Positions 10,787 through 59,469 of a stretch of 64,000 nucleotides of DNA are shown piece after piece; within the stretch, counting starts at the first letter, position 1, and every line of letters begins with the position of its first letter. The position numbers and the translations under genes are program-made. Origin of the DNA: Lampris incognitus (Eukaryota; Chordata; Actinopteri; Lampriformes; Lampridae); NCBI RefSeq assembly GCF_029633865.1, contig NC_079213.1, forward strand, positions 93,352,152-93,416,151, read 5' to 3'. The notes beneath the pieces are model-generated. The model saw only the letters and a program-made list of their open reading frames with translations, did no database searches and was not told the DNA's origin.

Positions 10787-11173
10787 GCACACACATATGA
10801 GAGGCCATGTGGGCTTCTCATATATATACACTGACACAGACATACACACAATGTCTCCCAGTCTCACTTCTTAGCAAAAACAAATATTTAAGCCACACAG
10901 AAAAATAAAGGAAGAGAATGAGTAAGGGCCGGATAGCTGAATGGAGGGAGGGAAGGAGGAAGAGGGAGATAGCAATACCGGACAGCAAATGGGATGAAGT
11001 TTTGTACATCTTATTCACAAGTAACTGTAATGAACTTTACATAAAAGTAAAGATGATAGCAACGTGCAATAAATGCACATTCATAATAAATGCACAACCT
11101 GTCTGTGGAAGTCCCTTCTTCTTTCATGCGGTGTAATTTCCCTGCAAGAATAATCAAGGCCATGCTTTCTGTG
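7195..11173. other. Intergenic, no gene recognised
   Basis: About 4 kb between atcay and nmrk2. It contains a CA microsatellite at 10757-10783 and short open frames without family resemblance. One reverse frame at 8896-9117 and an exon-like block at about 9900-10010 were looked at and left out. Confidence 0.5.
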
Positions 11174-11604
11174 TGTAACGTGCACGGATAAGTAGACACG
11201 CTGGCCGCTGGCTGGCGGGTCTGACCCTTTAGTCTGGCGGTTAGCGATGTGTCCTGCGGTGCGGGCGATACGGGTTCGCTTCCCGGCCGCGGCAGTTCCT
11301 GTGGTTGCGTTGTCCCCCGAATTCGCTACATTGGTGTCAGAAGTGGGACGGGGCGACCGTAAGGCCATCGGAAGCGTATGCGCCCTGAGGCGTGAAAGAG
11401 CTGATATGCTTAAGCGCGGGCACGCGCTTCCCGAAGGAGGGGGGTAGTGTAACGTGCATGGATAAGTAGACACGCTGGCCGCTAGTTGGCGCGTCTGACC
11501 CTTTAGTCTGGCGGTTAGCGATGTCTCCTGCGGTGCGGGCGATACAGGTTCGCTTCCCGGCCGCGGCAGTTCCTGTGGTTACGTTGTCCCCCGAATTTGC
11601 TACA
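11174..11604 (+). mobile_element. Miniature LTR element (TRIM-like) with tRNA-like boxes in its LTRs
   Basis: Two direct repeats, 11174-11330 and 11448-11604 (157 bp each), begin TGTAACGTGC and end GCTACA. They differ by about 5%. The 117-bp interior opens with TTGGTGTCAGAAGTGGGA, which sits where a primer-binding site should be. It closes with the purine tract GAAGGAGGGGGG (11433-11444), just before the second repeat. The whole is flanked by TGTG on both sides, a 4-bp target duplication. It encodes nothing, so it would need another element's proteins to move. It is a fossil of moderate age. Confidence 0.85.
11230..11283 (+). promoter_or_regulatory. tRNA-like A and B boxes inside the miniature LTR
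   Basis: TAGTCTGGCGG at 11230-11240 fits the Pol III A-box pattern TRGYNNARYGG with one departure. GGTTCGCTTCC at 11273-11283 fits the B box GGTTCGANTCC with one departure. The two starts are 43 nt apart, as in tRNA genes. The second LTR repeats this at 11504-11514 and 11547-11557. Pol III activity is inferred. Confidence 0.6.
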
Positions 11605-12392
11605 TGTGCTAAAGTAAGTATACACTGGGAGAAGAGCTAACAGCTGTCCTGATTAAAGTGTGTCCCTTCAATTAATTCCCTTGAGTTAAATGTATGGCTT
11701 ACTAACCCCAACAACGCCCTTACACCTTTAATACCTTTTATCTAGCACAGCAAAGCCTAAAGAGAGCCCACGGAAAATTTAACCATGTGCTTGTTATTCA
11801 GCCGGAGCTATGCAGCCTCGTCGTAGGATGCAGTGTAGGGATGGCTGTATAGGTTAAAAGGCTCGATCCGTTTATTCTTATTTCTCTATATATTATTTCA
11901 TATCTATTTTATATGTATTATTATTGATCTTTATCCATGTATTGATTTGAATCAGTGTTTGCTCAGAAGGCGAGAGGGAAGTTTGTTGAATTTGATTTAC
12001 AATTGTGACTAACTGACTTGAGTCGGTTGACAATTCAAAGATATCTCTGCAGGATCTGTCTAACAGTGAGCTTGTATGCGTCTCATAGTCAAGAAGCACA
12101 TTTTAGTAAATGCAGAGCAGATCACAGTTTATGTTTAAGGACCACATGGACGTTATTTATCCTGAACTGCGGTAAAGTGGAACGGAGACGTTCCTTGGGA
12201 GGCAACGTGTTTTTGTTTTGTTTTTTTAAACGTCCATCCTTGCTGCATCGAGGACGTGATCAGTCATAAAAGTGGTCGGAATGAAGCTGAACTTAAATGT
12301 ACTCGGCAGCTTTACAATTCAAATAAAATAAGACGTCGCGTCACACGGCACGAGCCGACAGCGTTGACCACGAGGTGCACTACGTATACGCG

Positions 12393-18446: not shown

Positions 18447-20071
18447 CACACTACCGTTCAAAAGTTTGGGATCACCCAAACAATTTTGTGTTTTCCATGA
18501 AAAGTCACACTTATTCACCACCATATGTTGTGAAATGAATAGAAAATAGAGTCAAGACATTGACAAGGTTAGAAATAATGATTTGTATTTGAAATAAGAT
18601 TTTTTTTACATCAAACTTTGCTTTCGTCAAAGAATCCTCCATCTGCAGCAATTACAGCATTGCAGACCTTTGGCATTCTAGCTGTTAATTTGTTGAGGTA
18701 ATCTGGAGAAATTGCACCCCACGCTTCCAGAAGCAGCTCCCACAAGTTGGATTGGTTGGATGGGCACTTCTTGCGTACCATACGGTCAAGCTGCTCCCAC
18801 AACAGCTCAATGGGGTTCAGATCTGGTGACTGCGCTGGCCACTCCATTACCGATAGAATACCAGCTGCCTGCTTCTGCTCTAAATAGTTCTTGCACAATT
18901 TGGAGGTGTGTTTAGGGTCATTGTCCTGTTGTAGGATGAAATTGGCTCCAATCAAGCGCTGTCCACTGGGTATAGCATGGCGTTGCAAAATGGAGTGATA
19001 GCCTTCCTTATTCAGAATCCCTTTTACCCTGTACAAATCTCCCACCTTACCAGCACCAAAGCAACCCCAGACCATCACATTACCTCCACCATGCTTAACA
19101 GATGGCGTCAGGCATTCTTCCAGCATCTTTTCATTTGTTCTGCGTCTCACAAACGTTCTTCTTTGTGATCCAAACACCTCAAACTTGGATTCATCCGTCC
19201 ACAACACTTTTTTCCAGTCTTCCTCTGTCCAATGTCTGTGTTCTTTTGCCCATCTTAATCTTTTTCTTTTATTGGTCAGTCTCAGATATGGCTTTTTCTT
19301 TGCCACTCTGCCCTGAAGCCCAGAATCCCGCAGCCGCCTCTTCACTGTAGATGTTGACACTGGTGTTTTGCGGGTACTATTTAATGAAGATGCCAGTTGG
19401 GGACCTGTGAGGCGTCTGTTTCTCAAACTAGAGACTCTAATGTACTTATCTTCTTGCTCAGTTGTGCAACGCGGCCTCCCACTTCTTTTTCTACTCTGGT
19501 TAGAGCCTGTTTGTGCTGTCCTCTGAAGGGAGTAGTACACACCGGTGTAGGAAATCTTCAATTTCTTAGCAATTTCTCACATGGAATAGCCTTCATTTCT
19601 AAGAACAAGAATAGACTGTCGAGTTTCAGATGAAAGTTCTCTTTTTCTGGCCATTTTGAGCGTTTAATTGACCCCACAAATGTGATGCTCCAGAAACTCA
19701 ATCTGCTCAAAGGAAGGTCAGTTTTGTAGCTTCTGTAACGCGCTAAACTGTTTTCGGATGTGTGAACATGATTGCACAAGGGTTTTCTAATCATCAATTA
19801 GCCTTCTGAGCCAATGAGCAAACACATTGTACCATTAGAACACTGGAGTGATAGTTGCTTGAAATGGGCCTCTATACACCTATGTAGATATTGCACCAAA
19901 AACCAGACATTTGCAGCTAGAATAGTCATTTACCACATTAGCAATGTATAGAGTGTATTTCTTTAAAGTTAAGACTAGTTTAAAGTTATCTTCATTGAAC
20001 AGTACAGTGCTTTTCCTTCAAAAATATGGACATTTCAATGTGATCCCACACTTTTGAACGGTACTTTTGTA
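18447..20071 (-). mobile_element. Tc1/mariner element, DD38E (Intruder-like), nearly intact
   Basis: The terminal inverted repeats read TACCGTTCAAAAGT, left at 18452 and its complement right at about 20048-20062. Both continue with GGGATCAC. The element is about 1.6 kb and encodes one transposase on the minus strand. It interrupts the repeat at 18412/20072. Confidence 0.88.
18611..19654 (-). pseudogene. Tc1-type transposase, one in-frame stop
   Basis: The frame starts at the ATG at 19652-19654 with MARKRELSSETRQS. A single TGA interrupts it just before EIAKKLKIS, probably from CGA by CpG decay. It is then open for 316 residues. A paired helix-turn-helix region is followed by a catalytic domain with LWTDESKF (first Asp), QQDNDPKH (second Asp) and SPDLNPIELLW (Glu). 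I count 38 residues between the second Asp and the Glu. Classic Tc1 has 34, so this fits the DD38E Intruder group. The tail is ADGGFFDESKV. Confidence 0.85.
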
Positions 20072-20925: not shown

Positions 20926-21274
20926 CCGGTTCTTGCGTAGCATATTAATTTTCCTTTTTATTCATAAACAAACACAACATCAGTCCTGGCGTCTGTGTAT
21001 TATCCGTGCGTCTGACGTCTCACTCTACTAGTGACAGGCATCAGTCACCGATACCTTACACCTACAGCGCCCCCTGTTGACCATGTGTTCCAACCATTTA
21101 AGACAGAACCAGAAATACTAGAAAATAATAGAAATCTCATGAACAACATTGAAGCAGTAATTTTAACATATTTTAAAGTCTTTCGCTTTTTTATAAGGAG
21201 TTTTAATTTTAAATGGGGGGCAAGATATTTTAATCTTTTTCATGCCAATGTCTATGAAAACACTCAGTGCCACA
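20926..21274 (-). repeat. 3' LTR of the Gypsy element
   Basis: Matches 27354-27702 almost throughout, with small indels. The outer end lacks about 29 bp that are present in the other LTR. It abuts TTTGATTTTGAGATACTTTA, a sequence common at the ends of fish repeats. Confidence 0.85.
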
Positions 21275-21320
21275 CTCTCCCCCACATTTTTTAATGTCTC
21301 CTGACATTATAACCAAAGTT

Positions 21321-22904
21321 CTACCAAGGTCGCCAAAAGTGTCTCTGCTCATGATACTGAGTCTCTGTCACTTCACAGTGTCTTGCAACCAACGATGGCT
21401 TCCCTAGTGTTTCATAGCTCAGTACGACAGGTGGCTGTCTCAGTCTGTATGGGTGTGCTCTTACTGTCTGAGGCGATTCTTCTCTTGCCTCACCACTCTC
21501 AGGACCCACATACACTGCTGGATCTAATTCATGTTGCTGAGCCAGCTGTGGCACGTCAGCAACCTCTTCGCTCTGTAGTGGCACATCCTCTTCGCTCTGT
21601 AGTGGCACATCCTCTTCGCTCTGTAGTGGCACATCCTCTTCTGAAGGTGGGGAACCCTGTTGAGGCCGGAAAGGGTCTGCCTCCGGATTCAGTGATGCTT
21701 GGTGGTGCTGCCTGTCTCTGCCAGACCTGAGATGCCACTGGTAGACGCCTCCGTCATCTTGCTCTGAGTCGCTGTCGGATGCTGGCCGCTGCTGCTGGAT
21801 GGGGCGTGATGTCCCCTTCCTCCTTGCAGGTCTCTGGACGTTTCTCTGCTGCTGCAGAGTCTGTGCTGCTGGCTGCTCAAGAGGTAGGTGGTCGCATGGC
21901 AGTAACAGATTTCCATGAACCACTCTGTCTTTCCCAATACCGTTCTCTGGACTGATCTGATAAACTGGGCTGTCATCACCTTTTCTTTCCTTCACTCTGT
22001 AGACTTGGCTTTCCCAATAAGATCGGATTTTTCCCGGTCCACCCCTTGGAGTACAGTTTGGGATGAGGACCCGGTCACCTGGCTGAAGGTCTCTCCCCTG
22101 CACCTTTTGGTCATAGTGGGCTTTCCCACAGGCCGCCTCTTTTTTTGCTGTCTTAGAAGCAATTTGATATGCTTGCATTGTCTTTTTCCAGTGGCTCACA
22201 TAGTCCTCATATGTTTCATGGGCCTCGTCTCTTTTGAGATTGAACAACAGGTCGATAGGCAGGCGGGGTGAGCGTCCAAAGATGAGGTGGTAGGGGGCGT
22301 AGCCTGTTGCCTCACTTTTTGTGCAGTTGTACGCGTGGATGACTTTAGCCAATGACTCTTTCCAGTCTTCCTTCTCTTTGTCCTCCAGGGTGCGTAACAT
22401 TGATAACAGGGTGCGGTTGAATCTTTCTACCTGGCCATTTCCCTGGGGGTGGTAGGGCGTCGTGTGCGAGCCCTGGATGCCTGAAAGATCCTTCAGCCTT
22501 GCCATGAGGTTGTTCTCAAACTCTCTGCCCATATCATGGTGCAGCTTGCTTGGGAAGCCAAATTTGAGTGCAAAATCATTAAACACCTTGTCAGCCACAG
22601 TTTTTGCAGATTTGTTCTTTGTAGCATAGGCTTGAGCAAACCTAGTGAAATGATCCATGACCACTAATATATACTCATAGCCATGCTTGAATTTCTCCAG
22701 ATGAAGAAAGTCTATTGAAACAAGCTCGAATGGATAAGTGGTCTGGATGGGTGTTAAAGGTGCTCGGGTCTGTTTACTGGGCTTCTTCTTTTTCAGACAC
22801 TCACAGACTTGAGTGACAAAGTGCTCTACGTCTTTGTGCATTTGTGGCCAGTAGAACCTTTCCCGAATGAGGTCAAGTGTTCTTTCTGTCCCCAGGTGGC
22901 CCAT
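21321..22904 (-). pseudogene. Gypsy integrase region with repetitive C-terminal tail
   Basis: Starts in the His/Cys region ([26 protein letters not shown]). The integrase core follows with VSIDFLHLEKF, HHDMGREFENN and PQGNGQVERFNRTLL, then the GRSPRLPIDLL block. The tail is acidic and proline-rich, with three tandem EEDVPLQS units encoded by a 24-bp repeat at about 21568-21640. Part of a fossil retroelement. Confidence 0.85.
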
Positions 22905-25324
22905 GTCTTGGTGCAGTTCTTTAAAAACAAGGGCTGGTAGACTTTGGGGATAACTAGCTGTTCTCCACGGCCTGTTGTGCGACGCAGCACACCGTCTTCA
23001 CCCACCTGGATCTTTAACCATTGTTTCAGTAGTATAGCCACAGCAGAGTGCTCTGCCTTTACCTCTGCTCTGCTCTGTCTCTTGTTTAGTGACTTATACC
23101 AGAGGATTCTGGATAAGTGTTCATCCTCTTCCTGAGCCGCGCGGATTTGTGCTGGGGTGAGCAGTTGGCCTGTCTCACAGTCCTTTACCAGGCTCAAGGC
23201 GCTGATGTGAACAATTCCCACACCCAGGCAAGGGGCTCTCCTTTGAACTTTGACACTCTCCATGGATGCACTGATTGCGTCGTGACTGACCTCTTTAATA
23301 CAGTGGCTCATGTATTCCTTGATGTCCAAAGGCATCCGAGACAGCCCGTCAGCATCTGAGTTGTTTCTTCCAGGACGATAGCGTATGTTGAAGTTATAAT
23401 CTGCCAGCTCCGCGACCCACCTGTGCCCTGTGGCATTGAGTTTTGCAGAAGTGAGCACATATGTTAATGGGTTGTTGTCTGTATAGACAACAAATGATGT
23501 GGCGTAGTACAAGTAGTCACGGAACCGTTCGCATACGGCCCACTTTAATGCCAAAAACTCCAATTTCCCAGAGTGGAGATGGTACCTCTTCTCTGCAGGA
23601 CTCAGGGTGCGTGAACCATAAGCTATCACTCTCATTTTACCTTGCTGAAGCTGATACAGCACCGCACCCAGACCAATTTGTGATGCGTCACAATGCAACA
23701 CAAATGGCTGGGTGAAATCTGGATATCCAAGGATGGGAGGCTCTGTGAGTGCATCAATCAGCTGGTTTGACACTTCCTGGTGGGCACTTGTCCACTGAAT
23801 GGGCGTGTGTGATGGTAAGTGTCCTTTCTTTTTCTTTGCTGTGTTCTTATGTCTTACTTTTGGTTGGTCGGGTGTGTGTTCCTCAGCGCCTGGGGCAGTT
23901 AGCGGACTGTACAATGGGTGGGCCACGCGGGAGAAGTTGGGGATAAAGGGTCGGTAATAGGAGAGAAAGCCAAGCCTCTGGCGTAGATCACCAACCGTAG
24001 CAGGGATTTTCTCCTTCAGAGCCATCACTGGTGCTATCTCCGCGGGGTCCATTGTATAACCCTCTGCTGTCACCAGCCTGCCAAGAAACTTCACACTGGA
24101 CTTGAACAGTTCCCACTTCTTTGGCGTTAGTTTAACCCCATGCTTTTTGTAGTGCTGGAGGACTAACTGAACATGCTCCAAATGTTCTTCAAAACTGCTG
24201 CTGTGTACTAAGTTGTCATCTAGGTAGGGGAGGCAAATGGTGTCTCTCAGGCCCGCTAAACAGTGCTCCATGCTCCTCTGAAATTCTGCAGGTGCTGAGC
24301 TCAGACCAAAGGGTATGCGTACCCACTCGTACAATCCCCAGGGCGTGATGAAGGCTGTCAATGGGCGGCTCTCTTCATCCAGGAAGCCCTGGTGGTACGC
24401 TTTACCCTGGTCTAAAACCGAGAACCATGAGCTTCCACCCAAGGCATCCAACATGTCCTGGATCCTTGGTATAGGATGTCTGTCAGGGGTGGGTTTGCAA
24501 TTGAGCTCTCTATAATCGCAACAGAGACATAGGGTGCTGTCCTTCCGGACACAAACCACCGGCGATGAATAAGGTGAGTGTGAGGGGATGATCCACCCCC
24601 TGTTCAGCAGGTCTTGCAGGTATTCTTTTACCTCATTGTGGAGGGGTTTTGGTACAGACATGTAGGTCTTTTGCCCTGGTTTGGTGTCATTGAGGGTAAT
24701 GTGCATCTTGAGAGATGGAATGCAGCCTATGTCGTCGCTATCAAATGCAAAAGCCTGACACTCTTCGCGCAGCATTTTCTTTGCAGCCTCCCGTTGAACC
24801 TTTGTGAGGTGTTCCAGATCTACAGGGGGGTCCCATGATGTTGGCTTCTCTTCCTGTCTGCTATCAGATTGTGGTGCAGGTCGTGCTGTGCTGGTTACCC
24901 CACTGACCTTGGCTTCCATGCCATCTGTTCTATAAGGTGGTGGGGCTGCTGTGTACACTGTCTTAACTGATTCTAAAAGTCCAATAACTTTATGATGGTC
25001 TAGGTAGATCGTGTGGTTGGAGGTGTTTGTCAATGGAATCGGTACATATGGGATTTTCTTTTCTGGGATCCTCACAAGCACTTCAGTACAAACCACGCCC
25101 TCTGGTGCAGGATGAAGGGCATCAGGTGAAAACAACATGTCTTCACCCTTACATTGTGCACCCACATGTGCTCTGATATAGACGGTGGTGACTATATTGG
25201 CTGGTAAGGGCACCCTTTTTCCACCTGTGCGGGCCACACCACTCTCTGGGTCCCCAGCACTATTCTGCAACAACTTCACAACCCTCTGCGCAGTTTTTAC
25301 CGTAATCTCGAAGGCTTTACCCAC
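22826..25324 (-). pseudogene. Gypsy reverse transcriptase and RNase H region
   Basis: The RT blocks are [43 protein letters not shown] and the catalytic YLDDNLVHS. RNase H follows ([27 protein letters not shown]), then [16 protein letters not shown]. The C-terminal end overlaps the integrase region. Part of a fossil retroelement. Confidence 0.88.
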
Positions 25325-25363
25325 TTGGTGTGCCAGCTGTTGTTTTCCACTTCTGGTTTTCCC

Positions 25364-25981
25364 TTAATTTCTGTTGATGATGGCTCTTATGACGTTGTAG
25401 CCTATAATAGGGTCACTTGCGACTGCAGGGTCACTTGACACCAGCATTGGCACTTGTAGGTGGCTTGTATTGCAGGGGTCATCCTCCAGCCGAAAGCTGA
25501 CCTCAATCCAACCAATATAGGAGATGGGGGTGTCATTGGCGGCAAGGAGTTCAAGTGTCTCTTCCCCCAGAATCTCTGAGATGGGCCGGATAACTGTATG
25601 GGGTAGGTGTTTCTGACGCCATGGTTCATTTATTATACAAGCCTGTGCCCCTGAGTCCCACAATACCTTAACTGGATGATTGTCCAAGAAACAGTTCACT
25701 TCACACCTTTCTCCTACAAGGTCAACTAGCCGTGACTGGCATTTAGAGGTTAGATATTGAACTGTTCTTACAGTTACAGGGGTGTCTGTTACATTTTCTG
25801 TGGCTGCTGTTGTGGGCAGAATAGTATGGCTGGTTGAGGCTGTCTTCTTTTGGGACGCTCCATCCTGGACTACCGCTGGTCCCGTTTCGGCAGTCCACTT
25901 CCGTTTCCCGACAAAGTTCCCTGCCTCCTGCACCCACGAGAGAAGTGTCCCTCTTGTCCACATTTGAAACAGTGTGGGCAA
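25364..25981 (-). pseudogene. Gypsy protease region
   Basis: Contains VLWDSGAQACIIN, the aspartic-protease DSG motif expected between gag and RT. A CCHC zinc-knuckle coding stretch (CFKCGQEGHFSRGC) lies at about 25.93-25.98 kb in a neighbouring frame. Part of a fossil retroelement. Confidence 0.7.
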
Positions 25982-26025
25982 TTTTCACCCACCTTCTCCT
26001 CTCTGCACTTTTTACAGCCTCTTTC

Positions 26026-27225
26026 TCACTGCCATGGTCCTGGAGGGCGGTGACTCGTCTCCATCACTGCAATGAACATCTGTTTCATTTCATTGCGAAG
26101 CTCCTCCATAATCTGCTGCGTGTTTATGCTGTCCTGTTTAGCCTCTTTTCCTTTGACTGTTTTGACTGCCGCTTCTGACTTGGATTCACTTATTTTAGAG
26201 GGGCTCTGAGTGGGTGTGAAATCGGCTTGGGTTTCGATTTGCAGCCCCTGCACTTTAGGATTTTTCGCAGTGGTGAATCTTTTCTGCTTCTCTTGTCTCT
26301 CATTTTCAAGCTTTGCAGCTTCATTCACCTTCTCAATGAGTTCTTCATCGGTTATTGTCACCTTACTAAGGTAGGGCAAAATCTGAAATTTCACTGAGTC
26401 ACTCAATAGCCCTGTTTCAATAGAGCGGAGGAACTTGCGCTGAATTGTGGCTTGGCTATACTGGTCGTCAGTTTCCTCATTTGCCACCTTCCATAAGAGT
26501 TTCTCCTTCAGCTCAATTGCTCGGAATACAAAGTTCAGGGCAGTCTCTCTCGGCTCCTGAGAGATGTTTATCAGCTGGTTGTAGAGTTCAGTGGAGCTGT
26601 CTACTTTGTAATGGCCCTTTAAGATTGTGAGAAGTGTTTGGAAGGTCAGTCCACGTTTGATTTCCAACATGTCCCTCAAAGGAAGTCCTGAACTGACAGC
26701 CCTGATGACTGCTTCTACAATCTCAGTCTCTGTGTGTCCTCTTTCTAATCCCATCTCAATCTGGCGGACTAAACTGAGGTAAGATAATTTTTCTTTTTGG
26801 CCACTTTCTCCAATCTGCCCCATAATCTTAAACTCCCTTCTCAGCGTTACCTCAGGCAAGGTGCGGTTTGGCTCTGGTCGGGTTGTGAACGGAGAGGCTA
26901 TGGGTCTTTGACGAAGGTCATGTGGCAAGATGGATGCAGGCTCCTCTGAGGACATCTCCTTGTGTGGTTGGAAACGATTTTGTCTGTCAATAAATGTTAG
27001 TAGGTCTGTGCAGTACTGATTTTCATCATCCTCATCATTTTCCTCAATCTCATCCAGCACGCTCTCTGCCATCTTGATGAGTACCCTTCGACTCTGGCTG
27101 CGGGGGTCTCCTCCTTTGTCCAGGCCTTCACACTTCATGTACCTGCAGACATCTATTAGAGACTCCTGCCCCAACTGCCATAGGACTGCACTCACTCGAT
27201 CACGCAGGATCTGGCTGTCACTCAT
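26026..27225 (-). pseudogene. Gypsy gag-like region
   Basis: A 399-codon frame begins MSDSQILRDRVSAVLWQL just inside the 5' LTR. Its composition is polar and Lys/Glu-rich, with a central helical block (YNQLINISQEPRETALNFVF) that resembles the retrotransposon gag family. It is first in the element, as gag should be. Confidence 0.75.
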
Positions 27226-27324
27226 TTTACTGAAGATTGAAGAAGGTTCGACTCTTTGTGAAGGAGGGGGGATTTGGAGTGAATTATTTCTCTTCTGCCT
27301 CCTCCTGGCTGGCTCGCCAAAATA

Positions 27325-27702
27325 TGTTACACTTTTAAGAATGACGCGATTGCCGGTTCTTGTGTAGCATATTAATTTTCGTTTTTATTCCTCTTGGAAC
27401 ATAAACAAACACAACATCAGTCCTGGCGTCTGTGTATTATTCGTGCGTCTGACGTCTCACTCTACCAGTGACAGGCATCAGTCACCGATACCTTACACCT
27501 ACAGCGCCCCCTGTTGACCATGTGCTCCAACCATTTAAGACAGAACCAGAAATACTAGAAAATAGAAATCACATGAACAACACTGAAGCAGTAATTTTAA
27601 CATATTTTAAAGTCTTTCACTTTTTTATAAGGAGTTTTAATTTTAAATGGGGGGCAAGATATTTTAATCTTTTTCATGTCAATGAAAACACTCAGTGCCA
27701 CA
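27325..27702 (-). repeat. 5' LTR of the Gypsy element
   Basis: 378 bp; TGTGGC and GTAACA are its ends on the minus strand. A SINE fragment abuts its outer end directly, so the element entered or truncated a SINE. Confidence 0.8.
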
Positions 27703-33585: not shown

Positions 33586-35168
33586 TACTGCTCAAAAAAA
33601 TAAAGGGAACACCTAAAAACACAATATAGACCTCGATGAATGAAATATTTCAGCTGAAAATCTTTATTTATTAGACAGAGGAATGTGTTTAGAGCAAAAT
33701 AACCTAAGAATGATCAATGGAAATCAAAATCATTAGCCCATTAAGGTCTGGATTCAGAATCATACTCAAAATCAAAGTGGAAAATGAGAACATAGGCTGA
33801 TCCAACTTCTGTGGAAATTCTTCAAGACGATTCAAAATGAGGCTCAGTAGTGTGTGTGGCCTCCACGTGCCTGTATTTACTCCCTACAACGTCTGGGCAT
33901 GCTCCTGATGAGACGACGGATGGTCTCCTGAGGGATCTCCTCCCAGACCTGGATCAGGGCATCGGTCAACTCCTGGACAGTCTGTGGTGCGACATCGCAT
34001 TGGCGGATAGTACGAGACATGATGTCCCAGAGGTGCTCGATTGGATTCAGGTCTGGGGAACGTGCAGGCCAGTCCATAGCATCAATGCCCTCGACATACA
34101 GGAACTGCTGACACACTCTGGCCACATGAGGACGAGCATTGTCATGCATGAGCAGGAACCCAGGGCCCACTGCACCAGCATATGGTCTGACAAGGGGTCT
34201 GAGGATCTCATCCCGGTACCTAATGGCAGTCATGGTACCTCTGGCTAGCACGTAGAGGTCTGTGCGGCCCTCCAAGGATATGCCTCCCCAGACCATCACT
34301 GACCCACCGCCAAACCGGTCATGCTGGAGGATGTTGCAGGCAGCAGAACGTTCTCCACAGCGTCTCCAGACTCTCTCACGTCTCTCACATGTGTTCAGTG
34401 TGAACCTGCTCTCATCTGTGAAGAGCACAGGGCGCCAATGGCGAATCTGCCAACCAAGATGTTCTCTGGCAAAGGTCAATCGGGCTGCACGGTGTTGGGC
34501 TGTGAGCACAGGCCCCAATTGTGGACGTCGGGCCCTCATACCATCCTCATGCATTCTGTTTCTCACTGTTTGAGCAGAAACCTGCACATTAGTGGCCTGT
34601 TGAAGGTCGTTTTGTAGGGCTCCGGCAGTGCTCCTCCTGTTCCTCTTTGCACAAAGGACCAGAAAGGCGGTCCTGCTGCGGGGTTGTTGTCCTCCTGCGG
34701 CCCCCTCCACGTCTCCTGGTGTACTGGCCTGTCTCCTGGTACCTCCTCCATGCTCTGGACACTGTGCTGGGAGACACATCAAATCTTTTTGCCACAGCAC
34801 GCATTGATGTGCCATCCTGGATGAGCTGCACTACCTGAGCAACTTCTGTAGGTTGCAGATACCGCCTCATGCCACCTCTAGTGGCGAGGGCACTAGCAAA
34901 ATGAAAAACTAACCAAAGATCGGCCAGAAAAGATGAGGACAGGCAAATGGTCTGTGGCCACCACCTGCAAATCCATTCCTTTTATAGGGGTTGTCTTGCA
35001 AATTGTCTAATTTCCACCAGGTGGAAATTAGACAATTTACCAACAGGTGAAATTGATTCACAAATCAGTGTTGCTTCCTAACTAAACAGGTTGATATCTC
35101 AAAAGTGTGATTGACTTGGAGCTACATTGCATTGCTTATGTGTTCCCTTTATTTTTTTGAGCAGTGTA
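33586..35168 (-). mobile_element. Tc1/mariner element, DD34E, full length but broken gene
   Basis: The inverted termini are TACTGCTCAAAAAAATAAAG at 33586 and the complement of nearly the same sequence ending at 35168. TA lies at the outer ends. The element is 1.58 kb. A subterminal palindrome with 18-bp perfect arms lies at 35000-35038. Confidence 0.92.
33844..34870 (-). pseudogene. Tc1-type transposase, one frameshift and one late stop
   Basis: Starts at 34870 with [20 protein letters not shown], then the helix-turn-helix [16 protein letters not shown] and a GRRR hinge. The frame changes near 34650-34700 and continues open to 33877. Catalytic residues are FTDESRF, MHDNARPH and SPDLNPIEHLW, with 34 residues between the second Asp and the Glu (DD34E). 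A TAA cuts off the last ten residues, IQARGGHTHY, whose own stop is at 33844. Confidence 0.85.
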
Positions 35169-39124: not shown

Positions 39125-39800
39125 GGCATAGAGTGCTACAGAGCAACCATATATTATAGTGGTGCTATATGAGGTAGTAGTACTAAGGTACATTTGATAC
39201 ATAGTAACCATATATTATAGTGGTACTATATGAGGTAGTAGTACTAAGGTACATTTGATACATAGTAACCATATTTTATAGTGGTACGATATGAGGTATT
39301 AGTACTAAGGTACATTTGATACATAGTAACCATATATTGTAGTGGTACTATATGAGGTAGTAGTAGCAAGGTATATTTGATACATAGTAAACATATATTA
39401 TTATAGTGGTATAATATGAGGTAGTGGTAGTAAGGTACATTTGATGCATAGTAACCATATATTATAGTGGTACTATATGAGGTAGTAGTAAGGTACATTT
39501 GATACATAGCAACTTGATGTTCAGTATTAGGGGAATACACCTTTAAGGACACAGGGAATTATGGGATAGTAAAACAGAGCAGCCACGGGAGCGGGAAGGT
39601 AGACGAGGGTCAGTCGGATTATGTGCACGTTATGCATGGAGGGAAATAAACATGCCGAAGTTCCACGGCTAATTCAGAAACGGTGTTATCATCTGTGAGA
39701 GGGAAAAGTAGGTCATTACAGTAACCATATACTATAGTGGTATAATATGAGGTAGTAGTAGTAAGGTACATTTGATGCATAGTAATTACATTATAGCCAA
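39125..39800. repeat. Minisatellite with a unit of about 60 bp
   Basis: About eight copies of a unit containing AACCATATATTATAGTGGTA, CTATATGAGGTAGTAGTA and AAGGTACATTTGATACATAG. The array is interrupted at 39514-39720 by an LTR-like insertion and resumes after it. Confidence 0.85.
39514..39720 (-). mobile_element. Solo LTR-like insertion inside the minisatellite
   Basis: A reversed copy of the 206-bp repeat at 17464/17683. It is flanked by GCAAC and GTAAC (one difference), a 5-bp target duplication that rejoins to the minisatellite consensus. The clean junctions in a repeat of known sequence fix the element's ends. Confidence 0.8.
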
Positions 39801-40116: not shown

Positions 40117-40385
40117 TGTATAGCAAATTCGGGGGGCAGCTGGGAATCCGCTACAGCCAAGGCGCGAACCCGGGTCGCCCGCTACATTAACCAGTCAACT
40201 AAAGGGGGGTCCGACGCGTTAGCTAAGGGCTAGCGAGTCTACTCATTCATGCTTGTTACACTACCCCCTTGTTCGGGAAGCGCGTCCCCGCGCTTCACCA
40301 TACCAACTCCCTCACGCCTCTAGGTGCATATGCTTCCGATGGCCTCACGGTCTCACCATCCCACTTTTGACACCAATGTAGCAAA
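40117..40385 (-). mobile_element. Second miniature LTR element, 5' LTR mostly lost
   Basis: Reverse-strand relative of the element at 11174. Its 3' LTR is 40117-40260 (144 bp, starting TGTAAC). The interior is 40261-40376 (116 bp). It opens with TTGGTGTCAAAAGTGGGA, keeps GGCCATCGGAAGC and ends in a purine tract, AACAAGGGGG. Only about the last nine bases of the other LTR remain. The LTR has GGTTCGCGCC and TAGTTGACTGG where the first element has its B and A boxes. Confidence 0.8.
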
Positions 40386-44925: not shown

Positions 44926-46325
44926 AAATTATTTGTGTTCATTTTCTCCTTTATCTTTCTTGTCTTATGAAAACTCTAAGCCATATCACATGAGTTTCTG
45001 TTCTTAGTCTGTTAATGATAGTGTTTGTGTATACTTGCATGTATCATGAATGAGTGTTCTTGATGTGTGTGTGTGTGTGTGTGTGTGTTGTGACTTAGAC
45101 TAATTCATTGTACTGCTGTAACATGGGTGTTTATGAAGTGAATTGCTGTCAGGTGCTGTGCTGAACTGTGCGCGTGTCTTGCTATATCTGGAATTATTGA
45201 TAGATACATACAAATTGGGCATACCCCATTGCTGTGATTGTTTCCTGCAGTATGCTGCCTGGAGAATGCCACTTTCCAAGCCCCTTGAGGGTTTTTAGGC
45301 AATTCTCCTTCACATTCTGTTGCCACTTATATATTGTATGTTTTTTTCATATGTGTAACCAAAGAATCAATCGCTCAATCAATCAATCAATCAATAACAA
45401 CCAATCATCCGCAAACTTAAGAAAAAAAAGTAATAAATTTTAATTCACACCAAACTCGATCCGACTGATCGTCATGGCTTCAGCCGCAGATGGCCCAGTC
45501 CATGAGAGCCCACTCATAATAGCCATCATGGTCATAATACTCGCCATGGTCATAATAGCCTTCGTGGTCATAATGCTCGCCATGGTCATAATAGCCTTCA
45601 TGGTCATAATAGTTATCAATAATCATAATACTTATCATGGTCATAATAGTCATCATTGATCATAATGGTACATCATTGGGAAGCACTGCTAAATGTAATC
45701 TATAGCCTATATCTTAAAGATGCCTGATGATGCATATGCATATCGATCTTGTGCACAATAATTTTAATACTTTTGGTTGAAATACAGATGAAAATAAACT
45801 GTGGACCGATTTCAAAGAAACATGACGATCTCACGCTGGACGAAGAGCGTGCGTCCAGTTTGAGGTAAACTATATTCCACCCCTGCGCCACCTGCGACTA
45901 TCTACGTAGTCCATCTTCGTCGTGTCCTGTTATAGAATAAGTCGATATTACTGTGCAGTATGCCTCAGCGTAAATCCGCGGTTTGCAGAGGAATGACAAA
46001 ATCACTGGAATTGTGATCGGCCGGGTGTTGAATTTAACAAGTCTGCGGGTCGTGGCGTAAATGGAAAGGCTTCAATTGAGAATCAGACATTTGTTTAGGA
46101 GAGATTCGTTTTTTTTCCCTCTTGATACCGACTTCTGGCTTACTTATATTTGTTCACCTGGAAACAAGGCTATTTTAGACATACGCCAAATAAACGATGC
46201 CAAACGAGATGGTTAACATATCGACCAGCCCCCCGACTGCGCATGTGTACACAACGCGTTTTCATGAAAGTAAGCTCTCATGTGACAAACGCTTGAAATC
46301 GCGTTAACTCAAACATTTGACGACG
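44926..46325. other. Upstream flank of loxl5; no gene, minisatellite at 45520-45672
   Basis: The array at 45520-45672 repeats CATGGTCATAATAG-type units, and its hydrophobic open frame is a by-product. A GT run lies at 45066-45089 and CAAT repeats near 45369-45393. No promoter motif could be fixed before loxl5. Confidence 0.5.

Positions 46326-46378
<53 letters not shown>
46326..46378 (+). repeat. (GT)n about 140 bp before the loxl5 start codon
   Basis: About 26 GT units followed by an alternating CG/GC run (GACGCGCGCGCGCCTGCG). Long purine-pyrimidine alternation can adopt Z-DNA. It lies in the 5' UTR or proximal promoter. Confidence 0.8.
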
Positions 46379-46379
<1 letters not shown>

Positions 46380-46517
46380 ACGCGCGCGCGCCTGCGTGTG
46401 TGTTTTAAAGACCACCCCAAACATCACCCACATTTTCACAGGAGTGTCAAAATCAAACACGCAGTCAATGTCACAGCGCTGGGGTCATTTAAGACAGAGA
46501 AAGTGAGACTTGTAGCT

Positions 46518-49500
46518 ATGGACAACTTCGCTTTGGTAGCAGTTTGTCTACTTCATAGTTTGGTGCATTTGAGCCTCGGCCAGCACAGTTTACGTGCGCG
46601 TCCCGGTCCATGGAGACAGCGGGTCCAGTGGGAGAATAACGGACAGGTGTACAGTTTACTGAGCACGGGAACTCAGTACCACTCGCCCGTGCCGACGAGG
46701 CGGCAGACCCAACTCTACCTCAGCGCCACCAAAAAGCATCACGGCCGACGTCACCCGGCCGCCGGGACTGACTTGGCCGCGGAGGAGAGAGACGCGGGTC
46801 GGCCGGACGCGTCGGTTCTCGGTCCGGAAGCGGGTCAGTATTTGCTCGCCACGGAGCGGCTCGATTCCGGCGCGCGTCAGCGCCCCTCCAACGACGCCGC
46901 CTCCGTTCAGGAGTTCTCCGGCAGCGGCGTCCCGAGAGGAGGGCGAACAAGTCTCCCGATCGGGGACGATGTAAGCAGATCGGGCGCACCCCGACTGGTT
47001 TCGGTGTCGCCGGCGGGACCGCCAGAAAGCCGAAGCCGAGAATCCGAAGGCGGGCGGTCTCTCGCCGGAGGGGCCCCCGGCGCTGAAGATGGAGGCCCCG
47101 GGCGACCGCGCGTCATCCTCCAGCAGCAGCAGCGGCGGCAAACGGCGTTAGGCGCGCACACCCCCGCTGCCAGAGTCCACCCGGAGTCCAGCGACTTCCC
47201 CGCGCCGCTGTCCAGCAACGCCGTAGATGCACACTTGCCTTCTCCAAGTCGCACAACAGGGACCGCCACGGATTTAACGCGGGAGGATGTTAGAGATCCA
47301 AACGGTCACCATCACAGGAACTCGGTTTTCTATCAAATGTACCCGCCGGCGGGCGGGAGCAGGGCCCCTGTGCGCCATCCACCAGGAACCGGTTACGGCA
47401 CCAGGTTTTTCCACAATGGTAAGGATAGCTTTTTTGGGGGGGGGGGATTCCAAGGGACATTATGTAGTATATATTTGAATATTTGGAGAATGCTTCACTT
47501 CATTGTGAATATATAGGCACATTTGTTCTTGTTGTGTTTCACAGGTCTCCCAGACCTGGTTCCAGACCCTTACTATATCCAAGCTGCCTCTTACATCCAG
47601 AGAGTGCAGATGTATGCTCTACGCTGTGCTGCTGAGGAAAACTGTCTTTCCAGGTGGAGTGTATTTTATTTTATTTTATTTTATTTTATTGGTTATTAGA
47701 TATGGTGTTAAACAATCAGCCGCATGCAAACATCAGTTGACCTATCTCTGAGCCATAATTGAGGCATGAGATATATTTTTTTGCTCTTTATCTGCTGAAA
47801 GGTTAAGGTCCGACTGAGAACTGCAATTCTGGGTTGTTGTTTTTTTGCTTTGTGATTTTTTGTGCATCAAAGTCTACATGTGTGATTTGTGTATCTTTTT
47901 GAGAAAAGTTTGTCTTTTTAAAACTCAAGATTTCCTCGAAACAAATATGTAAATAGAGACATGTTCATGATGACAGAATAGGCTTCCTTCGTGGTTGCTG
48001 GCTGCATAGGGATGTGGCGGACGCACTTGGTTCAGTCTCATTTGGAAGTAACAGTTGAGCGACAGAGCAGCTCCCCACAAACCGGGGCAGCAGAGCCAGA
48101 TTCTGCCCTCAGGTCTGACATGCTGCACTGCAAAGAAAAATAAGCACCGTAATGAAAGGCTGTGCATTCCTGAAGCCAGTGCAAAAACCATCACAGCAAA
48201 ACCTCAAACCGCTCCGACCGACCGCTCCTAAATCACATTAATGTCAACAGACGAGTTTGACGTAGATTCAAATCTGCGGAAGCTCAGATCCAAGGTAGCT
48301 ATGGATCCTCTGGCATAACCGATAGTATACCTAGATAGATATTCCTGTTTGTGGCAAATGGTTAAATCCTGCCCTGTCATCCTTTGTAAGCCTCTTTACC
48401 AGTGAAAAACTTCACTGGTAAATGTTTCGATCAAGGTCTGTGCCTGCAGGTTTCAAAGAACCATCGCCGTGCTGGAAATCATCTTGTTCCCATCAGAGCA
48501 CTCATTGCCAGTCTTGATCGTTTTACTTTACTTGCCGTCTTTCTTCCAGGTCTGCGTACCACCCGAGTGTGAGTGACCTAGACTACAGGGTCCTGCTGCG
48601 GTTCCCACAGCGGGTGAAAAACCAGGGAACGGCAGACTTCCTCCCAGTGAAGCCCAGACACGAGTGGGAATGGCACAGCTGTCACCAGTGAGTTCACTGT
48701 CAGGCTGCCCTTGTGGCGTTGTTGCACATGCTTACCTGCATGCATGTGTATCGTCTCTGTGTGTGTCAGTGCTCGAAGTGGAAAAAAATAAGTGCCAGTA
48801 TTCCCCTTATTAACATATGTCAGCCAGTATCAGCAAATCATCATTACATTCTGAATTTGTACAGTGAACAAAGATACAAGGAGATATTGCTGATCACATT
48901 AATTCATTTAATCAAGGGGACAACCATTTCAACATAAAGGGAGCGTGTCTATGTTCCCTCAACCCTATTTCATTGAACTTACCTTAACCTAACATGAAAA
49001 TGGTAAATGGAGTACATTTATATAGCGTGTTTCAAGAATCAGGAACACTGTCATTTCACATGAAATGAAACGAAAATATCATTTCCCCCAGCCCATAGAA
49101 GAGCAACACAAAGACAAAAGCACATACATACACATCCAAACTAGCACATATATCCAAACTAACACATATCCATCCATCCATTATCCAAACCGCTTATCCT
49201 GCTCTCACGGTCGCAGGAATGCTGGAGCCTATCCCAGCAGTCATTGGGCGGCAGGCAGGGAGACAACCTGGACAAGCCGCCAGGCCATCACATATTAAAT
49301 TTTTTTTTAAAAATCACTGTCCAGGGGAACAAACGCCAGCCAGGATGACTGTCGGAACTGCCGGTCTGCATGGGCTAACAGTTAGCTTAGCCTGCCCCGC
49401 TTCCGCATTCTTTCAGACCACCCTCGGTGCTTCCTCCTCGGGCACAGCTCCAGGCAGGGGCCGTGGTCCTTGGGCCCACCAGATGCAGCAGACCAGGCTC

Positions 49501-52016
49501 CCCCAGGGCCCAGCCATCCAACGCCAGCTCTCCCAGCCAGACATCCTTGACACACCACCCCACACCCCACACGACGACACCAAAAACACCACAGTCAATG
49601 CCAGGCGAAGCTGCCGCCAGACCGCCCTCAGTGTTATCGGAACTGTCAGTCTGCATGGGCGAGCAGTTAGCTTAGCCTTCCTCGCTTCTGCATCCTATCA
49701 GACTGCCCTCGGTGTTACCTCCTCGGGCGCAGCTCCAGGCAGGGCTGGTCCCTGGGCCCACAGGACGTAGCAGACCAAGCTCTCCCAGCCGATCCAGCAC
49801 CAGCTCTCCCAGCCATCAAACGAGGACAAAACTTAGACGCAGACGTGGACAAAGACACTGCATTGGACGGTGTAGAGTTATGGTGTGGCCGGCCAAGGGC
49901 CCTATTTAACCCGTAGCTGGGGGCTGGTTCATATAGTGTATTTAGATATTGTAAGATAAAATCTGAACAGAAACATGGAAATTATACCAAGTTTCCCTTT
50001 AAATATCTTCAAATAGTTGAGATACTGCAAATACCTCTGATAAGCTGTTGTTTTAACGGTAGCCCCTTTCTTATCATTGTGGCCAACCTCACCTATCTAA
50101 TAGCTACTCCTCTGGTCCAACGGGTTGCGTTGGACTAGCATATCGTCCCGTTTGTTTTAACGGTTAAAACAAACGGGACGATATGCTAGTCCAACGCAAC
50201 CCGTGTGCATTACCTTGGTGGTGTCCTGATGGCTTCTATATTCCTTGTTTGGCTTCAGAAAGGGGCCTCTTTTTTCAAAACACGAGACTTTCAGATCTGT
50301 CTCCCTCTCCCCCAGACACTACCACAGTATGGAGGCCTTCAGTAACTATGACCTGCTGGACATCCACACTGGGAGGAAGGTCGCTGAGGGACACAAGGCC
50401 AGCTTCTGCTTGGAGGACACGTCTTGTGACCGGGGAATACGACGACGCTTTGCCTGCACTGCCCACACACAGGTTGGTATGCTCGTTCTTTTTCGTTCAT
50501 TTATTTCTTCAAAATTCATATGCTGTGAAATTGCCCTTAGAAAGCCAACACGCACAAGACATCTCAGGTGTTAAGCTAGTTTATTCATTTTACGTGTTTC
50601 ATGTGTGTTTCTCTCAGGGTCTCGGTCCAGGTTGTTATGATACGTACCACGCCAACATTGACTGCCAGTGGATCGACATCACAGATGTACCACCGGGAAA
50701 TTACATTCTCGAGGTGGAAGGCTTGAATTCGTCAGCGATAACACACACTTTCAGTTGTCATTCAGTTGTTACTGTACTTTAAGTTTATATGCGTTAAAGC
50801 GGGTGTAGACAAACTCCCCTCCCCCCTTAGCATTTCCAAGCGGTATTATAGTGCTATGATAAAGGCAGGGTAAAACATCTGGTCGCATTAATAAGTAGGC
50901 AGGTTGTGTTACTGACTGATCCAGTAGAAAGAATGCCAACTGAATGTCGGTTTGCAACCCTCTCAAGTCCCGGGTGTTGTATTGAACTTTGTTTCCCTGT
51001 TAAGATCTGTTTCCCCCTAGCCAGAGTTCGATACAACAACGGGATGCTTGATTACCTCAATCTAACCCTAAACTTAACCTAACTTCAACCTAACCCTAAA
51101 CTTAACCTAACACTTACCTTAACCAAATCGTAACTGACAGCTAACCTATTTCCAAGGGAACGCTTTTGGCTGGCTAGGGGGAAACGGATCTCGACGGGGA
51201 AACAGTCCCACGAACCCCGGAGCTCTCTCTATCGACTGAATGCCCGTCCGAGGTTCACTCTTGTTTTACTTCTGTTTCTATCACTTTCCCTCTTCGCCTT
51301 CTTTGCCTCCTCCGTCAATGGGGTTCTTTTTCTCTTGGCGGGTAAAGTTTCCACTGTCACTTTGGTTGCTCCACCGTTTCCGCTACTGGGGATAGCTACC
51401 GGGGAAAACAAAAGCTCTATTCTCTTCCTATTTTGGTTGCGCAATGGTTGATGCACTTCCTTTGTGCCATAAATCGAGCCTTCGTTTCCCTCGCGAGATC
51501 GTACCCGGTGGTAGACAGAATCGCATAGTGAAAGCGAGGCTATATGGACAAAAAATTTGTCTACTGTCGCTTTAAGGTAGACTGGAACAGAATGCAATCA
51601 TTGGTACTGAGGTCCTAACCAGTACTAAGCTCTCATTATTTACTATTTTCTATATCACCCCTTACCTTCATCTTTCTTTCTTTCTTCCATTTACTTCCTA
51701 TAGGTGACAGTGAACCCCTCTCAACTGGTTCAGGAGTCCGATTTCTCCAACAACGTGGTGCGGTGTGACATCAGGTACACAGGGGCCTACGTCCAGGCTA
51801 GAAACTGCAGGATTACCGGGTAAGTCAGACACCCTGTGCCTTCTACCCACACAAAGGCCCCACAACATCTGTGGCTGTATTACATAATTTTAAAACAGAT
51901 TCATAAAGGATGCATCATTGTCACTCAGTTGTTTGTTATGCTACATTCAAAAGCATTCTGGCATAGTGAACATGAAAAGCGTGACTGTTGTCTGTCCTTT
52001 GTTTCACAGGAGCTAA
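46518..52016 (+). CDS. loxl5: Lysyl oxidase, LOX/LOXL1/LOXL5 group (probable LOXL5)
   Basis: A secreted copper amine oxidase that oxidises lysine in collagen and elastin to start cross-linking. Exons are 46518-47418, 47545-47653, 48550-48687, 50316-50472, 50618-50713, 51704-51819 and 52010-52016; all phases join to 507 residues. The start gives a signal peptide ([21 protein letters not shown]). Then comes [20 protein letters not shown], as in LOX propeptides, and a long Arg/Pro/Gly-rich pro-region with no SRCR domains, which excludes LOXL2-4. The catalytic domain starts [13 protein letters not shown] at residue 301. Copper-site [11 protein letters not shown] has His379, 382, 384 and 386. The LTQ cofactor pair is Lys410 ([14 protein letters not shown]) and Tyr445 (CYDTY). 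The last exon supplies only the final Ser and the stop. LOXL5 rather than LOX or LOXL1 is inferred mainly from synteny. Confidence 0.88.
47664..47692 (+). repeat. (ATTTT)n in loxl5 intron 2
   Basis: Six pentamer units just after the exon 2 donor. The rest of this intron (to 48549) shows nothing further. Confidence 0.8.
49160..49290 (-). mobile_element. SINE 3' fragment, reversed, in loxl5 intron 3
   Basis: CATCCATCCATTATCCAAAC and CCTATCCCAGCAGTCATTGG are complements of the tail region of the full SINE copies. The head is missing. Confidence 0.75.
49342..49920. repeat. GC-rich direct duplication, unit near 290 bp, in loxl5 intron 3
   Basis: Blocks GTCTGCATGGGC, CAGTTAGCTTAGCCT, CCTCCTCGGGC and CAGCTCCAGGCAGGG occur at about 49360-49460 and again at about 49650-49745. 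The long open frames on both strands follow from the GC content and are not gene-like. Confidence 0.7.
50120..50204. repeat. Perfect palindrome, 42-bp arms with a 1-bp centre
   Basis: 50120-50161 is the exact reverse complement of 50163-50204, with a single G at 50162. The centre reads TTTTAAC-G-GTTAAAA. It lies in loxl5 intron 3, about 110 bp before exon 4. Confidence 0.95.
50990..51204. mobile_element. MITE-like element with 35-bp inverted ends and telomere-like interior
   Basis: Left end 50990-51024 and right end 51170-51204 are inverted copies with about five differences; both contain TTTCCCCCTAGCCAG or its complement. The interior (51060-51115) is a string of CTAACCCTAA/CTTAACCTAA units. 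It is in loxl5 intron 5. Confidence 0.7.
51229..51597 (-). pseudogene. Repeat-derived basic ORF of 122 codons in loxl5 intron 5
   Basis: The reverse frame ends in a basic, helical stretch ([20 protein letters not shown], then [17 protein letters not shown]) and stops. I recall such basic R/K-rich segments in many uncharacterised fish open frames linked to mobile DNA, but cannot name the family. No promoter or splice context supports a host gene. Confidence 0.35.
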
Positions 52017-54045: not shown

Positions 54046-56165
54046 ATAGCTAATAAATGTTAAAGGGGCTTGCCATAGTCCACTTGCTGTGGCTCTCTAC
54101 AGCAGCGTTTTATAATCCGTGCAGAAACTATACGGCTCTGTCCTCGACACCTCCTGCAACACAAAACCGACAGCAGTCGATGTTGTGGCTCTGTCCAGTG
54201 AGCTGTGGGCAGCACTTCTCCTCATGGGAACTAACCTGGAGAGTTAAGAGGAGAATCTTTCTCCAATCACTTCTGTTGTGGGTTCTCACAATAAAATGTA
54301 AGTTGGTCTTGGTCACCTTTGCTTCACTTTTTGGTGTTAATGAGACCTCTTTTAAGTGTACTTATTTTTATTTGCTTCTAGTTAAGAGGACATTTGGAAA
54401 GCCTATTACCCTGAAGTGTGTTCCTTTACATTAGAAAAATGGTTGAATAGATTACACACAGACTTTTTTTTTTTGGACTGGGTCCACGTAGCTTGGGAAA
54501 CCAGTAAATTTCTCTCCTCTTCTTATCCAAACATGGCGTTTCTGTGAAAGACAATGCCATCTTTGGTGAGCGAGTGTGAGTCTGGGTGTGACGGAGCCTC
54601 CTCCGCTGGCGGACGTGTTTGCTCAGGGCAGGCCGCTGTGCTAAGCCTCCGGGGCTGCGGGTCGCCCCTGTCTGCCCCTGCTGGAAATGGCGAGGTGGAG
54701 AGAAATTCCACAATTCCGGAGACAGCCAAGAAAACCTCACCGGAGACTGCTGACATCAGCAGCACCACAGCTAAAGTGCCCTTATCATCGAATCCGTCTC
54801 TAATGCTGAGCCAGAAGGCTTGACTGTCTGAGACTGCTGGTCAACAGATTCCTCACAGTTACGACATCTGATCCTCAACGTTTTGCTGTTCCTCGTACAG
54901 ACCCAGAGTACGACCTGCGACTATCCATTAAATAGCCGAGAGTAAAACCCACGCTAATGCAGCTTAAAAAAAAGAATGACTGGAAAAATAGGTGGTCCGT
55001 ATTTATTTTGTTTCAATGGCACACGTGCTAGTGTAATAGGTAAAGAGAACAACCTGTTTGTGGGCACACGGTGGAAATAACGCAGAATTTTTTTCCCCCC
55101 TGAGTGTCTGACAACTTGAAAAAGGGAACAATGTTTACCTGAGCAGGACAGGCTCTCCTTGTCCTGTTACACATCATTAAAGTCTTTCCAGATTTCCCTG
55201 TTTGGGAAAGAAAAATGTGGCCCAGATGGTGTCTATACTGTTACCCTCAGAGCTGCCGTGCATGTACCAAAATAGTCAATAGGGGATCCGAGCGAATGAA
55301 TACTCATTTTTAACTGAGTGAAATCCAGTTTCTCTATTATTTTTGGGCCAGGAAGTGGGATTGGGCTGGGAGACTCCGGATGAGACAGTGAACGGGTGGG
55401 TGATGGTGGAGGTGGAGAAGGAAGGGTTATTCAGCCGAAACCATCCTGTTATTTTGGGTTTGAATGCGGTTGGTGTTGTTTTACAGTTTAACACACGAAC
55501 GTGAATCAGTGTTAAGAGGTCTCCTCTCTTGCCATACACGAAGACGGCACTTTATCGTTTCAGAGAAATGCAGAGACTGATGAACAGCGATCACTGACCT
55601 GTTCTCATCTTGAGAAACAGAACTTGTTATTCTACTTTTGGGACAGTAATGGATAAGTCACTTCTTAGTGAGAGAAATGTGGAACATATTTCATTTTATT
55701 ACTGACTGACACTCACCAACATAATACTTGTTCAAGATTCAAGATTCAAGATTTAATTTATTGTCATGCTGTTTCTCGCAGCCCACATCAGTGCAACAGA
55801 AAAGATTAAAATAAATATCCAAAAATTCCCTAAAAACAATACCACTAAATGCATAAAAACAACACAGTCCATTCAAGTGCAACACAGTCCATTAAAGTGC
55901 CCTTTCAGTTTGAATGTTGGTATTTCCAGAAGGCTTGATGAGTGGTTTTGAGAGTAATGAAAGGTTTGCACATTTTCAGCAGCAGCCCTAATGTCAAGGA
56001 CAACAGCAATAATAATGACAGCTTCATTTGAATTGCATTTTTTTCTGAAGCAAACCTGCCTCTTGATTATGTCAAACAAAATCCACCAACATAAGATAAC
56101 CCATGAGGAGGATTACATCAAAAACAAACATAACATGAGCGAGCATAATACAAACCCTGGGACGA
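54046..56165. other. Intergenic; GC-rich block at 54560-54820, no gene
   Basis: A 89-codon + frame covers the GC-rich block (54554-54823) but shows no family features and no exon signals I trust. The rest is AT-rich. Confidence 0.4.
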
Positions 56166-56169
56166 AGGG

Positions 56170-57290: not shown

Positions 57291-59469
<2,179 letters not shown>

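Follow-up and report, generated by a model that had tools for sequence, protein, structure and literature searches.

A Helenus-kind retrotransposon with tRNA-type promoter motifs in its LTRs and chimeric loci that point to a Gypsy helper in a fish genome

The name Helenus has been given to TRIMs whose LTR contains a tRNA-like stretch; according to the consulted portions of the description, they create 4-bp duplications in animals and are present in fish (Kojima 2024, PMC10886601). The zebrafish family LTR-11_DR has 5575 LTRs and 2618 interiors and forms tandem arrays, and the primers of vertebrate Helenus include Leu (PMC10886601, same portions). In these portions the help of Gypsy elements for animal Helenus is inferred from primer-site similarity only, and a polymerase III function is called untested (PMC10886601).

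Three other groups of TRIMs invite comparison, each taken here from part of its source. The Cassandra elements of plants are TRIMs that likewise form tandem arrays and have a polymerase III promoter sequence within the LTR, but this sequence is 5S rRNA with promoters and terminators, whereas the element described below has tRNA-type boxes and no TTTT inside (excerpts of PMC7215508). PbTRIM of ants, likened to it by description, is an animal TRIM with 4-bp duplications, among which ATAT is the commonest, and a tRNA-Leu primer site; the single mention of Pol III in the excerpts concerns Ty1/Ty3 targets and not a promoter (PMC3532108). The biv-TRIM elements of bivalves are animal TRIMs with tandem arrays in which, unlike here, no canonical primer-binding site was identifiable (excerpts of PMC6934838). 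TRIMs with small-RNA promoters combine SINE-like transcription with LTR-type copying, and thousands of LTRs with such boxes bear on the annotation of tRNA genes and polymerase III sites.

Here we describe an element of 431 nt at positions 11174-11604 (plus strand) of a window, by which we mean the whole stretch of 64,000 nucleotides of Lampris incognitus DNA that was analysed. We consider it likely, from its sequence and that of its relatives, that this is a TRIM of the Helenus kind, a non-autonomous LTR retrotransposon with a tRNA-type promoter in its LTR, which would be transcribed by polymerase III and mobilised by Gypsy elements.

The element is a tiny non-coding LTR retrotransposon with two LTRs around an interior. 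The 5' LTR (11174-11330, plus strand) and the 3' LTR (11448-11604, plus strand) are each 157 nt long, start with TGTAAC, end with GCTACA and are identical at 149 of 157 positions. The target-site duplication TGTG can be read from the window letters on the left (11170-11173) and on the right (11605-11608). The interior of 117 nt (11331-11447, plus strand) starts with TTGGTGTCAGAAGTGGGA and ends with GAAGGAGGGGGGTAG, and is too short for replication proteins. It contains a primer-binding site, TGGTGTCAGAAGTGGGA (11332-11348, plus strand), which is the complement of the 3' end (with CCA) of tRNA-Leu-looking genes of the same genome, a local hairpin with a 7-bp stem, AAGCGCG-GGCA-CGCGCTT (11412-11429, plus strand), and a polypurine tract, GAAGGAGGGGGG plus TAG (11433-11447, plus strand), which resembles the Gypsy tract AAGGAAGGGGGCAG. 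Two LTRs, a total length below 1000 bp and the lack of coding capacity are all features of a TRIM, and so are the primer-binding site (17 nt complementary to a tRNA 3' end plus CCA), the polypurine tract and the target-site duplication.

The box consensuses used here are TRGYNNARNNG for the A-box and GGTTCGANTCC for the B-box. The 5' LTR contains an A-box match, TAGTCTGGCGG (11230-11240, plus strand), with one mismatch, and a B-box match, GGTTCGCTTCC (11273-11283, plus strand), with one mismatch, a C in place of the canonical A. In the 3' LTR the A-box lies at 11504-11514 and the B-box at 11547-11557, and the starts of the two boxes are 43 nt apart in both LTRs. A sequence-only reading of the window had proposed 157-bp TG..CA repeats, a PBS-like start, a purine tract, a TGTG duplication and a 117-bp interior, all of which are borne out, as are the A- and B-boxes that it placed 43 nt apart in each LTR.

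Judged by its structural features, which were set beside the published description rather than its sequences, the window family is of the Helenus kind. The common features are a short LTR element with boxes in the LTR, a primer site, a purine tract, 4-bp duplications, tandem arrays and thousands of copies in a fish (PMC10886601, portions consulted). The two differ in that box A is TRGCY in most Helenus families and TAGTC in the main subfamily here, and in that the link to a helper is made by primer-site similarity there and by chimeric loci as well here (PMC10886601, same portions). The sequence-only reading had likened the element to Cassandra, as its animal counterpart with a promoter of tRNA type. 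The TRIM size and the boxes at tRNA spacing uphold the structural part of this claim; the novelty that it implied is lost to Helenus (PMC10886601).

The start of the LTR has no second occurrence within the window at up to three mismatches. A diverged Helenus relative nevertheless lies on the minus strand at about 40117-40385. A remnant of its 5' LTR and its interior occupy 40261-40385, with the interior running from 40376 and about 85% like 11321-11443; this LTR is nearly lost and only its last bases are kept. The 3' LTR (40117-40260, minus strand, right edge approximate) has a 12-nt gap in the tRNA-like part.

The family is large and partly young. The 1.48-Gb genome to which the window belongs has 1,886 places that match a 21-base interior pattern (A or G allowed at one position) and none that match the reversed control; an interior variant with GGTCA (the GTCA variant) is found at 533 places. 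A first genome search scored the best 40 of 3,933 candidates; the 43 matches from these 40 were, besides the window copy, 94-96% identical and nearly all full length, and they included tandem LTR-interior arrays. A sample of 40 elements was made up of 39 fetched loci and the window copy, with none dropped; copies with damaged ends (L009, L016 and others) were kept and scored as duplication misses. Since the 39 loci were taken from the best-scoring list, the sample represents the copies closest to the window copy, and within it exact 4-bp duplications flank 27 of the 40 elements and 5-bp duplications none. The 27 duplications are mostly RTAY (ATAT 13, ATAC 7, GTAT 4, GTAC 1, CTAT 1, TGTG 1). 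The LTR pairs of the sample differ at 256 of 6260 sites (4.1%), and three pairs are alike at 156 of 157 positions. One exact pattern run against each of the viral and prokaryote collections found no Helenus relatives there.

Of 43 internal regions, 34 have the hairpin with all 7 bp of the stem paired, 31 of them with the loop GGGA. Any function for this hairpin can only be conjectured, because folding of the interior as a whole is not clearly better than in shuffles (z -0.59; for the LTR likewise, z -1.48). Some Helenus subfamilies (L076, L048, L058, L059, L072, L077) have interiors of only about 38-50 nt, in which the primer site nearly abuts the purine tract, so that little else seems to be needed between the LTRs.

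The boxes are better matches than chance would readily supply. When the window LTR was shuffled 2000 times with dinucleotides preserved, allowing up to two mismatches in each box and a spacing of 38-51, the window's total of two box mismatches was reached by one shuffle and a total of one by none (0/2000); 63 of 83 genomic LTRs have one mismatch in all. Both boxes with up to two mismatches each are found in 81 of the 83, and the A-box is perfect (TAGTCGAGCGG or TAGTCTAGCGG) in 70. The loss of the boxes from most copies, which the earlier reading had named as telling against it, is not seen: 80 of 83 LTRs keep them at a spacing of 43 nt. Conservation of the boxes above background, proposed as a check, is not found within the family (A 0.952, B 0.975, mean of 11-nt windows 0.968, over the 83 LTRs). 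This is as expected if inserted copies drift freely, and within-family conservation fails as a proof of function, the boxes being no better kept than their surroundings.

Conservation was also compared between subfamilies in a set of 38 near-full LTRs from 24 sources, the window included, which was reduced to 10 representatives. In these representatives the A and B columns together average 0.914 and the remaining columns 0.835 (permutation p about 0.026); tested singly, A gives p 0.19 and B p 0.06. Among 147 sliding 11-nt windows, 49 equal or exceed the conservation of the A-box and 27 that of the B-box. Conservation between subfamilies forms islands at both ends of the LTR, at positions 51-63 around the start of the A-box and at the B-box. 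The spacing in the 38 diverse LTRs is 43 nt in 28, 31 nt in seven and another value in three, and the seventh base of the B-box is C in 36 and T in two, never the canonical A.

The tRNA likeness of the LTR consists of boxes and spacing, and does not extend to a match with the Rfam tRNA model, which found no LTR in the window or in 20 loci. ARAGORN was negative for the window LTRs; over 49 loci its single tRNA-like call fell within a palindromic part of L061. No 5S match was found in Rfam scans of the window, so the 5S sequence that marks Cassandra is absent there. The motif TTTT is missing inside the window element and present in five of the 38 diverse LTRs; its absence is weak evidence for polymerase III, because 688 of 2000 shuffles are also without it. 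The case for a polymerase III promoter is thus one of motif, spacing and moderate conservation, not of a tRNA fold or transcripts.

These results can also be read in terms of an ordinary TRIM transcribed by polymerase II, in which the A- and B-boxes are dead relics of a SINE or a tRNA piece captured in the LTR. The decay of the boxes along with the rest of the LTR within the family fits such relics, as do the lack of any LTR match to the tRNA model and the non-canonical base of the B-box. Relics sit less easily with a spacing that 80 of 83 LTRs retain, as do 28 of 38 diverse ones, with box columns that are somewhat more conserved between subfamilies, and with the conservation around the same boxes that is given across Helenus families in the consulted portions of Kojima 2024 (PMC10886601). 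We regard this alternative as unlikely, though one to be taken seriously.

The primer site of the window element matches the tRNA complement with CCA over 17 nt. The 28-base complement of the tRNA 3' end, as read from the locus L061, occurs at 27 places in the genome, L061 itself among them, and the three other places that were fetched all match the Rfam tRNA family. We take these three loci to be tRNA-Leu because of a long variable arm and, for L174 and L175, the anticodon region CTCAAGG with an insert; ARAGORN found no tRNA in the fetched candidate tRNA-Leu loci. In L061 the DNA after the LTR agrees with the tRNA complement beyond the primer site, over 35 bases in all and more loosely thereafter; the locus looks as though plus-strand copying had gone on into the primer tRNA itself. 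Beyond this stretch lies an inverted LTR. The place C2:134887352 is probably a second junction of the L061 type, because the CCA complement is present there too (with ATTGG before it).

A search for the primer site joined to LTR ends unlike those of Helenus gave 92 places. Ten of them end in CATGTCAC; all ten were fetched, and all carry the LTR of one Gypsy family, which is 379 bp long and reads TGTGGCGA..GTCACA. Six pairs of this LTR stand 5.0-6.2 kb apart, and one copy has RNase H and integrase domains. The interior is of the family's own Gypsy type in seven of the ten loci, of a third kind in L114 and a Helenus start in L108 and L117. Five distinct insertions have the flanks GTAT/GTAT, ATAT/ATAT and ATAT/ATAT, which are exact, and GTAT/ATAT and ATAT/TTAT, which are one letter off; the third exact duplication (ATAT/ATAT, C1) sits in an AT run, and a sixth locus, C21:44584, was counted with the first insertion, its flanks being identical.

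The purine tract of this family, AAGGAAGGGGGCAG, is similar to the AAGGAGGGGGGTAG of Helenus. The Gypsy partner for which the sequence-only reading had suggested a search thus has a candidate in one family whose primer site is that of Helenus, whose purine tract is similar and whose 4-bp duplications are likewise RTAY. The junctions described below point to this family as the probable helper of Helenus here. The two offer a concrete pair for the question of how such elements gain an autonomous helper.

Other Gypsy-like loci were considered. L063 and L106 carry the same primer site; their LTR stretches match none of 15 fetched candidate chimera loci, so no chimera supports either as a helper. 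The window's own Gypsy element (20951-27684, minus strand) was rejected because it has another LTR and no such primer site. Its gag and pol frames are long and open, its LTRs measure about 300 nt and are 95-97% alike, its flanks show no clear duplication, and the sequence at the position of the primer site is odd. L064 contains retrovirus-like integrase fragments.

A pattern that joins the end of the Gypsy LTR to the Helenus interior gave 17 places, L108, L117 and 15 others, all of which were fetched. True chimeras are found at 13 of them (L108, L117 and 11 of the 15 newly fetched), and L107 is a fourteenth; the four remaining places have a look-alike end on a Helenus LTR or fragment. All 14 joints lie at the border of LTR and primer site, 13 exactly and L107 with two extra bases. 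L139 has just 79 nt of the Gypsy LTR beside the joint, and L108 and L117 have only the first 65 or so and 45 or so bases of the Helenus interior after it. In longer stretches of the eleven newly fetched chimeras a Helenus LTR lies downstream. Junctions that recur in this way at one point allow co-packaging to be tested from sequence. The open-access literature searched yielded one Helenus paper and no account of Gypsy/Helenus chimeras, and the tie between Gypsy and Helenus by chimeric loci is new as far as that search goes.

Five of these eleven chimeras have readable flanks: ATAC/ATAC, ATAT/ATAT and ATAC/ATAC are exact, and ATAA/ATAC and ATAT/CTAT are one letter off. The other six stand outside this count, in L152 because the array continues, in L153, L156 and L157 because the left edge is lost or outside, and in L159 and L161 because of the Gypsy interior into which the Helenus LTR runs on (mixed arrays). 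Three exact duplications in five, where flanks paired at random would give 1.6, agree with insertion as one unit, short of proof.

The minority GTCA variant of the interior is found in 12 of 13 chimeras and in none of the four look-alikes; genome-wide it has 533 places and the commoner form 1,886. The chimeras therefore stem from one active subfamily or from one amplified lineage, and may not all be independent. Five candidates with the other interior type were viewed by flanks of 51 and 61 bases, with eight further candidate places lying outside this view. C18:37517440 fits: its pieces show the Gypsy purine tract and LTR, then the primer site with the beginning of the Helenus interior, and the end of a Helenus LTR with ATAC after it; they support one more chimera, in a mixed array. 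C1:48509499 has the start of a Gypsy LTR but a further primer site on the right, and in the candidates C1:116816509, C3 and C17 the left piece is not the start of a Gypsy LTR.

The mechanism that we propose begins with polymerase III, which would start an RNA from the A- and B-boxes of the 5' LTR that extends into the 3' LTR. This Helenus RNA would be packaged in particles of the Gypsy family with the same primer site, where a leucine-type tRNA would prime its copying by the Gypsy reverse transcriptase, and the Gypsy integrase would insert the Helenus copy. A joint would form if, inside one particle, a plus strand whose end is the Gypsy primer site paired with a minus strand of Helenus DNA. 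That polymerase III-made Helenus RNA was co-packaged with one Gypsy family, and that strand transfer at the primer site repeatedly made elements with a Gypsy LTR and a Helenus LTR at opposite ends, inserted by the Gypsy integrase with its usual RTAY duplication, is a proposal to which we give an even chance. From the shared GTCA variant, two-promoter hybrids may have become a lineage of their own.

Chimeras could instead have arisen by recombination between Gypsy and Helenus copies that were already inserted, in which case they would be no sign of co-packaging. Mixed arrays do exist (L159, L161 and the C18 locus), and the three exact duplications in five are not clearly above random pairing. 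Recombination between inserted copies would, however, have to find the only stretch common to both families, about 21 nt at the primer site, at all 14 joints, and three chimeras have exact duplications on both sides. We think it a doubtful account of the joints compared with strand transfer in a shared particle.

Finally, that Helenus consists of internal deletion derivatives of an ordinary autonomous element with the same LTR, which the sequence-only reading had named as telling against it, is very improbable: some TRIMs do arise in this way (PMC10886601, a figure legend), but the window Helenus and the Gypsy-LTR loci have only about 21 nt in common by BLAST, at the primer site, and no long coding element with Helenus LTRs appeared among the primer-site places viewed (30 of 370 and 40 of 92, from patterns aimed away from standard Helenus interiors and LTR ends).

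Several variants were seen among the fetched loci. Nineteen of the 92 primer-site places end in CCGGTTACATTGG (L092, L098, L099, L100 and 15 more); in those viewed, the 5' side has a different tRNA-like stretch as the second half of its LTR, and a Helenus interior and the usual 3' LTR come after it. Inverted head-to-head dimers of the Helenus LTR were noted in L077, L072, L070, L071, L057, L050, L094 and L092 (the last by eye), and seven of eight inverted LTR junctions are head-to-head. The dimers were tried as a map of the RNA start and abandoned, their edges being spread over LTR positions 32-111 and too scattered. They might come from self-priming of early cDNA.

The window also contains two frames that we take to be Tc1/mariner-like transposases (18611-19576 and 33877-34981, minus strand), frames that presumably represent exons resembling lysyl oxidase (46308-47516 and 50168-50782, plus strand) and what appear to be fish-type SINEs. 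A degenerate 22-bp tandem array lies in strong GC skew at 56106-57300, and a 61-bp array is found at 39134-39502.
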